Shown piece by piece: positions 45,863 through 48,683 of a DNA stretch of 64,000 nt. This DNA is from Burkholderiaceae bacterium. GTDB lineage: Bacteria > Pseudomonadota > Gammaproteobacteria > Burkholderiales > Burkholderiaceae_C. The stretch lies in assembly GCA_030654805.1 (NCBI GenBank), contig JAURWR010000040.1:50205-114204 (forward strand), written 5' to 3'. The notes below the pieces were generated by a model. It was not told where the DNA came from and did no database searches. It was given only the letters and a program-made list of their open reading frames with translations. Position 1 is the first letter of the stretch, and each line of letters starts with the position of its first letter. The position numbers and the translations under genes were made by a program.

Positions 45863-47338
45863 ATGATTTCGCGCGAACCCACCATCGAACGCCTGGGCAT
45901 TGCTCAGGCGTTGCTGATCGAGCCCTTCGGTCTGTCCGAAGCGGCGCTGACTCGCGCCCTGCAGGCCATCGCCACGCACCGCATCGACGACGCCGACCTG
46001 TACTTCCAATACACCCGCAGCGAGGGCTGGAGCCTGGAAGAAGGCATCGTCAAGAGCGGCAGCTTCGGGATCGACCAGGGCGTCGGCGTGCGCGCCGTGG
46101 CCGGCGAGAAAACGGCATTTGCCTACTCGGACGACATCTCCGAAGCGGCGCTGATGGATGCTGCGCAGACCGTGCGCACGATCGCCGCAGCGGGTCAGAG
46201 CCGGCGGGTGAAGATCGACACGGCGCGCAAGGTCGCTGGCAGCCGCGTGCTGTACGCACCGATGGACCCGATCGCGTCGCTCGACAGCACGCAGAAGGTG
46301 GCCTTGCTGGAGCGCGTGGAAAAGCTGGCCCGCGCGAAGGACCCGCGCATCAAGCAGGTGATGGCGAGCATCGCCGGCGAGTACGACGTGGTGCTGGTCG
46401 CCCGTGCCGACGGCACCCGAGCGGCCGACGTGCGGCCGCTGGTGCGCCTGAGCGTGACGGTCATCGCCGAGCAGACGCTCAAAGGTGAAGTGCGTCGCGA
46501 GACCGGCAGCAGCGGGGGTGGTGGCCGTTTCGGTTACGGCTACTTTGACGCCGCCGTGATCGAAAGCTACGTGAACGATGCCGTCAACGCGGCGCTCACC
46601 AACCTCGAATCCCGGCCGGCGAAGGCGGGCGAGATGAGCGTCGTGCTGGGGTCCGGCTGGCCGGGCGTGCTGCTGCACGAAGCCATCGGCCACGGACTCG
46701 AGGGCGACTTCAACCGCAAGGGATCGAGCGCGTTCAGCGGTCTGATCGGCCAGCGTGTTGCCGCCAAGGGTGTCACCGTGCTCGACGATGGCACGCTGCC
46801 CGACCGGCGCGGCTCGCTGAACATCGACGACGAGGGCAACCCCAGCCAGCGCAACGTTCTGATCGAGGATGGCATCCTGAAGGGCTACCTTCAGGACTCG
46901 ATGAACGCACGGCTGATGGGCGTCAAGCCGACAGGCAACGGCCGCCGTGAAAGCTACGCTGCGGTGCCGATGCCGCGCATGACCAACACCTACATGCTCA
47001 GTGGCGACAAGACGAAAGAGGAAATCATCGCCGGGCTGAAGCGCGGCTTGTATGCGTCCAACTTCGGCGGCGGGCAGGTCGACATCACGAGCGGCAAGTT
47101 CGTTTTCTCGGCCAGCGAGGCGTTCTGGGTCGAGAACGGCAAGATCCAGTACCCGGTGAAGGGCGCCACCATCATCGGCAACGGCCCGGACGCGCTGACC
47201 CGCGTCAGCATGATCGGCAACGACATGAAGCTCGACACCGGTGTCGGCACCTGCGGCAAGGAAGGTCAGAGCGTGCCGGTGGGCGTGGGCCAGCCGACGT
47301 TGCGCATCGATCGACTGACGGTTGGCGGCACCGCCTGA
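45863..47338 (+). CDS. tldD: Metalloprotease TldD
   Basis: LLHEAIGHGLEGDFNRKGSSAFSG, MPRMTNTYM, GGGQVDITSGKFVFSASEA. Confidence 0.96.
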   Translation: MISREPTIERLGIAQALLIEPFGLSEAALTRALQAIATHRIDDADLYFQYTRSEGWSLEEGIVKSGSFGIDQGVGVRAVAGEKTAFAYSDDISEAALMDAAQTVRTIAAAGQSRRVKIDTARKVAGSRVLYAPMDPIASLDSTQKVALLERVEKLARAKDPRIKQVMASIAGEYDVVLVARADGTRAADVRPLVRLSVTVIAEQTLKGEVRRETGSSGGGGRFGYGYFDAAVIESYVNDAVNAALTNLESRPAKAGEMSVVLGSGWPGVLLHEAIGHGLEGDFNRKGSSAFSGLIGQRVAAKGVTVLDDGTLPDRRGSLNIDDEGNPSQRNVLIEDGILKGYLQDSMNARLMGVKPTGNGRRESYAAVPMPRMTNTYMLSGDKTKEEIIAGLKRGLYASNFGGGQVDITSGKFVFSASEAFWVENGKIQYPVKGATIIGNGPDALTRVSMIGNDMKLDTGVGTCGKEGQSVPVGVGQPTLRIDRLTVGGTA

Positions 47339-47376
47339 GAAGCGACACCAGGCCTGCGTGGTACATTGCTTCGGCA

Positions 47377-47448
47377 ATGAAGCACGCTTTCGGTTTCTTC
47401 TACTTCTGGTTCTCAAACCGCACCGGCGGACGAGAGGCTAGCGCGTAG
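47377..47448 (+). CDS. Aromatic-rich leader peptide MKHAFGFFYFWFSNRTGGREASA (attenuator leader)
   Basis: 23 codons + TAG; FGFFYFWF control codons (5 Phe, 1 Tyr, 1 Trp) just upstream of intrinsic terminator and DAHP synthase. Confidence 0.82.
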   Translation: MKHAFGFFYFWFSNRTGGREASA

Positions 47449-47475
47449 ACAGACCGAAACGCAGACCGAATCTCG

Positions 47476-47507
47476 AAACCGCCGGGCACCCCCCGGCGGT
47501 TTTTTTT
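47476..47507 (+). terminator. Intrinsic terminator/attenuator before DAHP synthase
   Basis: AAACCGCCGGG-CACCC-CCCGGCGGTTT followed by T-run. Confidence 0.92.
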
Positions 47508-47567
47508 CGACCATGCAGGCTTCCTCGATCACGAGACAACCCATCCACCCGAACCCTGGAGCTCATC

Positions 47568-48683
47568 ATGCCCAACCAGAACGCCGCCACCGAAGGACGT
47601 CACGCACTCAGTGAAAGGACCAGCCAGACCGACGACGAACGCATCCGCGACGTCACCCCGCTGCCGCCACCCGAGCACCTGATTCGCTTCTTCCCGATCC
47701 GCGGGACTGCGATCGAGGCGCTGGTGGGCGAAACCCGCAAGCGCATCCGCCGCATCATGTCGGGCCAGGACGATCGGCTGCTGGTGATCGTCGGGCCGTG
47801 CTCGATCCACGACCCGGCGGCAGCGATCGAGTACGCACGCAAGCTGAAAGAGCAGCGCGACCGCCATGCCGACACGCTCGAAGTCGTGATGCGTGTTTAC
47901 TTCGAGAAGCCGCGCACGACCGTGGGCTGGAAGGGCCTGATCAACGATCCGTACCTGGACGAGAGCTACCGCATCGACGAGGGTCTGCGCATGGCCCGCC
48001 AGTTGCTGGTCGAGATCAATCGCCTCGGCGTGCCTGCGGGCAGCGAGTTCCTCGACACCATCAGCCCGCAGTACATCGGTGACCTGATCAGCTGGGGCGC
48101 GATCGGCGCCCGCACGACCGAGAGCCAGGTGCATCGCGAGCTGTCGTCGGGGCTTTCAGCGCCGATCGGCTTCAAGAACGGCACCGACGGCAACATCCGC
48201 ATTGCCACCGATGCGATCCAGGCGGCCGCCCGTCCGCACCACTTCCTGAGCGTGCACAAGAACGGTCAGGTCGCGATCGTCGAGACCACCGGCAACCCTG
48301 ATTGCCACCTGATCCTGCGCGGCGGCAAGGAGCCCAACTACGACGCGGCGCATGTCGCGGCGGCTTGCAAGGACCTGGCGGCCGCCAAGCTGCCGGCGAC
48401 GCTGATGGTCGACTGCTCGCACGCCAACAGCAGCAAGCAGCACGAGAAGCAGAACGACGTGGCCCGCGACATCGCGGCGCAACTGGCGGGCGGCAGCCGA
48501 AGCATTTTCGGCGTGATGGTCGAGAGCCACCTGAACCCCGGTGCGCAGAAGTTCAGCCCGGGCAAGGACGACCCGGCCAAGCTCGCGCATGGGCAGAGCA
48601 TCACCGACGCCTGCATCGGCTGGAACGACACGCTGACGGTGCTCGATACGCTGAGCAGCGCGATCAAGGCTCGCCGCCGCTGA
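47568..48683 (+). CDS. aroG: 3-deoxy-7-phosphoheptulonate synthase (class I DAHP synthase)
   Basis: VIVGPCSIHDPAAAIEYA, MRVYFEKPRTTVGWKGLINDP, MVDCSHANSSKQ. Confidence 0.96.
   Translation: MPNQNAATEGRHALSERTSQTDDERIRDVTPLPPPEHLIRFFPIRGTAIEALVGETRKRIRRIMSGQDDRLLVIVGPCSIHDPAAAIEYARKLKEQRDRHADTLEVVMRVYFEKPRTTVGWKGLINDPYLDESYRIDEGLRMARQLLVEINRLGVPAGSEFLDTISPQYIGDLISWGAIGARTTESQVHRELSSGLSAPIGFKNGTDGNIRIATDAIQAAARPHHFLSVHKNGQVAIVETTGNPDCHLILRGGKEPNYDAAHVAAACKDLAAAKLPATLMVDCSHANSSKQHEKQNDVARDIAAQLAGGSRSIFGVMVESHLNPGAQKFSPGKDDPAKLAHGQSITDACIGWNDTLTVLDTLSSAIKARRR

Follow-up and report, generated by a model that had tools for sequence, protein, structure and literature searches.

In the E. coli pheL-pheA and trpL-trpE leaders, the stall codons overlap region 1, the 1:2, 2:3 and 3:4 helices are mutually exclusive and a terminator lies before the gene. 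Multivalent control is exerted by the leaders of E. coli ilvGMEDA and thrABC, where one leader carries codons of several related end products. Entry into the aromatic pathway of E. coli is controlled by three DAHP synthase isozymes and two repressors. An aroF attenuator has been put forward as a hypothesis for E. coli and Shewanella. The C. glutamicum aroR leader upstream of aroF contains Phe and Tyr codons and is reported to respond to Phe only (PMC11802643 and PMC4046766, after Neshat 2014). The uORFC-13-1 motif was described before aroF in Acholeplasma, with 24 examples from one Mollicutes genus and environmental sequences (PMC8632094), and the leader mRNA of S. meliloti trpL/rnTrpL begins at the trpL ATG (PMC7298713).

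Here we describe a leader upstream of aroG, found in a 64-kb stretch of DNA (the window), which, with a 1:2 hairpin as its predicted element over the stall codons, resembles E. coli pheL-pheA and trpL-trpE in layout. It is very probably a translation-coupled (ribosome-mediated) aromatic transcription attenuator of aroG. No Rfam family reached its gathering threshold in the window; matches to the leader were at chance level only, none was found in 12 relatives, and the leader did not attain the gathering score of Phe_leader or Trp_leader. Pfam and NCBIfam contained no model covering the leader peptides. We found no report of an aroG attenuator in Betaproteobacteria, although an earlier mention is possible in the subscription literature (e.g. 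Vitreschak 2004, Panina 2001). The combination of a Phe/Tyr/Trp leader located upstream of aroG and occurring across most Burkholderiales was not found in the literature searched, Rfam, Pfam or NCBIfam.

Leader ORF, terminator and predicted promoter upstream of aroG

The leader ORF starts at ATG 47377 and runs for 23 codons to a TAG at 47446-47448 (Table 1). Seven of eight consecutive codons are aromatic, and no other run of eight codons in the six frames of the whole window contains 7 or more; none so rich occurred in 40 simulated 64-kb sequences. The 205 distinct matching leader ORFs start with ATG in 200 cases and with GTG in 5. The arms of the terminator enclose a CACCC loop, its T-run consists of eight Ts, and 60 bases separate it from aroG, which is preceded by GGAG at 47558-47561. 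An earlier note made from the letters of this DNA had proposed a 23-aa leader ORF from this ATG with the tract FGFFYFWF, a terminator at 47476-47507 and an aroG start at 47568; all of these features are confirmed. Folding of the 229-nt leader was much more stable than that of dinucleotide shuffles (z = -6.3). A simple terminator scan made no call at the leader, probably owing to base pairing between the stem and some of the Ts in the T-run; in RNA folding the hairpin was plain. The terminator, a CCGCC..GGCGG hairpin with a T-run, was present in 199 of the 205 distinct leaders.

Table 1 Features of the aroG leader and flanking genes, in window positions
Feature	Position	Strand	Basis
tldD (metalloprotease), upstream neighbour, outside the switch	45863..47338	+	NCBIfam PRK10735
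Predicted extended -10 promoter element TGGTACATT, 9 nt upstream of leader ATG	47359..47367	+	TGNTANNNT motif conserved at this place
Leader peptide ORF MKHAFGFFYFWFSNRTGGREASA, stop included	47377..47448	+	205 distinct matching ORFs upstream of DAHP synthase genes
Stall tract FGFFYFWF: 5 Phe, 1 Tyr, 1 Trp codons	47389..47412	+	Amino acids conserved, synonymous TTT/TTC and TAC/TAT swaps in relatives
Region 1 (P1 5' arm) TTCTC, pairs with GAGAG 47432-47436	47410..47414	+	TTC bias; 1:2 own-versus-swapped comparison
Region 2, CCGGCGG (47423-47429) and CGAGA (47431-47435), antiterminator 5' side	47423..47435	+	GGCGG conservation; 2:3 coevolution
Region 3, TCTCG (47471-47475) and AAACCGCCGGG (47476-47486), antiterminator 3' side and terminator 5' arm	47471..47486	+	Sequence, duplex, folding
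Region 4, terminator 3' arm CCCGGCGGTTT (47492-47502) and T-run (47500-47507)	47492..47507	+	Folding; terminator in 199/205 leaders
aroG, class I DAHP synthase (3-deoxy-7-phosphoheptulonate synthase), regulated gene	47568..48683	+	NCBIfam TIGR00034, 523 bits (cut-off 173)

The tldD stop codon (47336-47338) leaves 38 bases for a leader promoter. Among 123 near relatives, defined by an AroG at least 70% identical, TGNTANNNT (typically GTGCTACATT) ended 6-9 nt upstream of the leader ATG in 105, against none of 5490 control positions; the spacing of 9 nt in the window is at the long end of this range. The base preceding the ATG was a pyrimidine in 116 of the 123. A Shine-Dalgarno-like site 4-18 nt upstream of the ATG was found in none of them, and 7 were counted in a control stretch. 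Judging from these sequences, the leader mRNA is probably leaderless in the species of the window, and the simplest reading places the transcription start on the A of the start codon. In Burkholderia and Massilia the leaders have a box of sequence TATAAA or TATAGT about 30-45 nt upstream, again with no Shine-Dalgarno; this spacing predicts a short 5' UTR. The predicted promoter and the probable leaderless start are additions to the earlier note, which had missed the promoter.

Competing helices and calculated folding around ribosomes

Three mutually exclusive helices can be drawn: P1 (1:2), the antiterminator (2:3, 12 pairs in two stretches) and the terminator (3:4, 11 pairs). The GAGAG at 47432-47436, which overlaps region 2, doubles as the P1 3' arm. 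Two competing pairings had been listed in the earlier note. The one between CCGGCGG (47423-47429) and CCGCCGG (47479-47485) is present and corresponds to the conserved antiterminator, whose second helix (CGAGA 47431-47435 with TCTCG 47471-47475) was absent from that list. The other, between CGGTTTC (47391-47397) and AAACCG, is not conserved; in the alignment relatives have other codons there, indicating that this pairing is local to the species of the window.

Coevolution of regions 2 and 3 was seen when arms were exchanged between leaders. The mean 2:3 duplex energy was -21.2 kcal/mol for own arms versus -18.7 +/- 0.2 kcal/mol for permuted arms; in the comparison by family, 20 of 22 did better with their own arms than with swapped ones (p = 1.2e-4). 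Pairing reached 87% in register and dropped to 22-60% once the arms were slid. A concerted change from CCGGCGG/CCGCCGG to CTGGCGG/CCGCCAG was found in Burkholderia, where the terminator was altered too. On the tree, the variable 2:3 column provided only five independent contrasts, 3-4 of them concordant and none discordant, so the formal strength of the 2:3 case rests on the whole duplex. The 1:2 duplex was better with own than with swapped arms in 16 of 22 families (sign p = 0.05, Wilcoxon p = 0.006); in these sequence comparisons, support for the 1:2 hairpin is weaker than that for 2:3. The last Phe codon of the tract, which belongs to the P1 arm, was TTC in 103 of 106 near relatives (103:3 for TTC to other), compared with 298 TTT to 123 TTC for the remaining tract Phe codons. 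This bias of the last codon argues for an RNA constraint on the synonymous choice. The other tract Phe codons of near relatives are mostly TTT, and Phe in aroG of the window is encoded by TTC only; the preference for TTT in the tract possibly reflects rare-codon tuning or avoidance of structure.

Folding was calculated with masked ribosomes, assuming a footprint that extends 12 nt past the first base of the A site. When RNA polymerase had yet to reach region 4, the calculated probability of the antiterminator was 0.99-1.00 with the A site at any tested codon from F5 to S13, and 0.00 with the ribosome at codon 15. Under this assumed footprint, stalls at F8, Y9, F10, W11 and F12 cover the P1 arm wholly or partly. 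Since these stalls both free region 2 and cover P1, the effective zone would include one or more codons for each of Phe, Tyr and Trp. A ribosome that has reached the TAG masks the end of CCGGCGG and all of CGAGA, giving a calculated terminator probability of 1.00 in the full transcript; before region 4, the first antiterminator helix still had a calculated probability of 0.78. For ribosome-free RNA, the calculation returned 0.79 for the antiterminator versus 0.19 for P1 before region 4, and 0.94 for P1 with 1.00 for the terminator in the full transcript. Because an antiterminator is possible before region 4 in both the stop-codon and the ribosome-free states, termination there would also rely on folding order. 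The calculated hairpin energies were -26.9 kcal/mol for the antiterminator and -19.9 kcal/mol for the terminator. Once region 4 was included, the equilibrium calculation mostly favoured the terminator in all states, which implies that the switch must be kinetic and decided during transcription, like known attenuators.

We infer leader translation, tRNA sensing and terminator readthrough from the observed features, their conservation and the 2:3 coevolution, together with the calculated folding around masked ribosomes. The promoter suggests a transcription start that coincides with the leader ATG or adjoins it. While aromatic tRNAs are charged, the ribosome would cross the tract to the TAG at 47446 and mask part of region 2; regions 3 and 4 would then pair and RNA polymerase would terminate at 47500-47507. 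Shortage of an aromatic aminoacyl-tRNA would make the ribosome stall in the tract and block the P1 arm (47410-47414), leaving region 2 free. Free region 2 would pair with region 3 ahead of region 4 synthesis, no terminator would form and aroG would be transcribed.

Amino acids that the leader may sense

Across the 205 distinct leaders, Phe was present in 205, Tyr in 197 and Trp in 149, a few of the automatic ORF picks in distant genomes being uncertain (e.g. L191, L118). In tract columns of near relatives, TTT and TTC, as well as TAC and TAT, interchange while the residue stays, which argues for selection on the peptide. The presence of Trp depends on the clade: it was found in 116 of the 123 near relatives versus 33 of the 82 distant relatives, and the AroG tree requires a minimum of 24 changes in Trp state. 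Leaders of the Oxalobacteraceae type (L144, L146, L151, L058, L066, L068, L072 and L074; Massilia, Rugamonas, Janthinobacterium and others) mostly do without Trp and keep Phe and Tyr. A link between Trp loss and a second DAHP synthase was considered and rejected, as leaders with and without Trp occurred at both one and two copies (63 genomes, by eye).

Sensing of Phe is highly likely, and the leader probably also responds to Tyr; for the species of the window, the balance tips somewhat towards sensing of Trp as well. That each of the three is sensed independently, making this a trivalent leaderless attenuator in which any single shortage would switch aroG on, is a tentative proposal falling short of even chances. 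The earlier note had stated that the leader reads Phe, Tyr and Trp together. The folding geometry is consistent with that statement, which is undercut by the many relatives lacking Trp and by C. glutamicum aroR, which carries Phe and Tyr codons and is reported to respond to Phe only. The same attenuator could instead answer in effect to Phe only (or to Phe and Tyr), the Trp codon being a bystander or structural RNA near the P1 arm, an alternative that we regard as a serious possibility, if one we would not bet on. Trp is absent from 7 of the 123 near and 49 of the 82 distant leaders, and Phe codons are more numerous than the others. C. glutamicum aroR, with Phe-Tyr-Phe, is reported to answer Phe limitation and not Tyr (PMC11802643), so codon content alone is no proof of sensing. 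Against a bystander role, Trp is a rare residue and yet is kept in 116 of 123 leaders of the window's family; it stands elsewhere in the tract in some leaders (L007, L038, L044), and the Trp codon of the window (47407-47409) lies where the calculated stall frees region 2 most clearly.

Distribution of the leader and comparison with known systems

Genome searches were carried out with R1, a covariance model of the leader. R1 had one strong match in the genome of the window and matched 197 of 201 genomes of its family (179 of 180 among those of good quality); the four family genomes with no match are assemblies of 55-90% completeness. Of the 300 sampled genomes of the order, 104 gave a match and about a quarter are counted as carrying the leader, with full-length matches in about 14 families; strong matches beyond the order were confined to one further family of the class. 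A DAHP synthase gene adjoins 153 of the 154 matches that were retrieved at E values no higher than 2e-6, the sole exception being a match at the end of a short contig. Weak matches (E 3e-6 to 1e-3) were mostly bare terminators or other loci and were rejected as DAHP synthase leaders. Three loci of one family (L214, L215 and L216; f208) have weak full-length matches (E about 1e-5) with no adjoining DAHP synthase.

Matching leaders lie upstream of DAHP synthase relatives in most Burkholderiales. Their pattern is FYFxYFWFS..GGREA in Comamonadaceae and neighbours, MSAKFYFYFFW(H/Y)L(R/K)PLADREG in Burkholderia, Paraburkholderia and Caballeronia, and FF..YFYFSxSxPxAVE in Massilia, Rugamonas and Janthinobacterium. 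Absence of conservation of the ORF, the tract or the exclusive stems had been named beforehand as evidence against an attenuator; all three are conserved, and ORF, tract, antiterminator and terminator are kept together upstream of DAHP synthase in 134 genus codes. The leader and its arms form a real, widespread and unannotated family, very probably of attenuators, whose putative peptide gene is overlooked by standard annotation.

At other loci of the window's genome, no such leader was found at the second DAHP synthase (59% identical to aroG; G000:C131:11265-12317, L002) or at pheA, which lies behind serC, and neither an aromatic nor a Trp-rich leader ORF turned up in the neighbourhood of trpE. 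The second DAHP synthase gene is located about 50 bases downstream of a HAD-type hydrolase. Tandem DAHP synthase genes with a single Trp-containing leader occur in one genus of another family, f203 (G638:C1:2562489-2564623, also G733 and G510). In Cupriavidus-type genomes (G644:C15, G644:C170; also L035, L042), the DAHP synthase most like that of the window (74-75%) has no leader and the other copy (65%) has one.

Beyond the tract, constraint shifts from peptide to RNA. GGCGG follows the tract in 187 of 199 leaders, in frame 0 in 89, frame 2 in 92 and frame 1 in 6; its retention across different frames indicates that the RNA, not the protein, is conserved there. The peptide segment beyond the tract shows no conservation as protein, a result that weighs against the released leader RNA or peptide acting in trans, with or without attenuation, as Sinorhizobium rnTrpL/peTrpL do. 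Such a role is unlikely here, for all that the predicted leaderless RNA of about 130 nt ending at the terminator has the layout of S. meliloti rnTrpL (PMC7298713). Still less probable is an ordinary tldD terminator beside a chance aromatic ORF, with aroG served by a promoter of its own downstream: a strong intrinsic terminator does stand between tldD and aroG, followed by 60 bases, but the ORF, tract, region 2 and promoter are conserved upstream of aroG in 134 genus codes and a comparable tract is absent from the rest of the window and from the simulations. A metabolite-binding riboswitch or T-box, either of which would fit a terminator-controlled biosynthetic gene, is barely credible given the lack of an Rfam family match in the window and 12 relatives, the restriction of conserved sequence to the ORF and attenuator arms, and the predicted near absence of RNA upstream of the ATG in the window's family.

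The translation-coupled attenuator would offer a concrete explanation of how aromatic-pathway entry is controlled in an order of environmental, plant-associated and clinical bacteria. Annotation, for its part, lacks an Rfam-type family for it and, in many genomes, the putative peptide gene. The change from predicted leaderless mRNA in Comamonadaceae to a predicted 5' UTR in Burkholderia and Massilia would be a natural experiment on ribosome loading in attenuators.

Among described systems, C. glutamicum aroR-aroF resembles this leader in having a leader peptide with Phe and Tyr codons before a DAHP synthase gene and in ribosome-mediated attenuation, which is very probable here; it differs in being actinobacterial and in carrying Phe-Tyr-Phe without Trp, the comparison covering codon content and layout. 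Leaders that carry Trp codons and leaders that lack them form a natural series in which to ask if a single leader responds to more than one related amino acid, a point on which C. glutamicum left doubt. The uORFC-13-1 motif likewise combines a predicted uORF with Phe codon(s) and a terminator before a DAHP synthase, but is described with at least one Phe codon and not with a mixed tract (PMC8632094). S. meliloti trpL precedes trpE(G) in an alphaproteobacterium, and its 5' end is known whereas that of the window's leader is predicted (PMC7298713). Mixed codons are shared with ilvGMEDA and thrABC, where they are branched-chain or Thr/Ile and not aromatic. E. coli pheL and trpL differ in sensing one amino acid, where several may be sensed here, in preceding other genes and in having a ribosome-binding site at the leader. 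If the trivalent reading is true, a single cis element would do the work of the E. coli isozymes and repressors.
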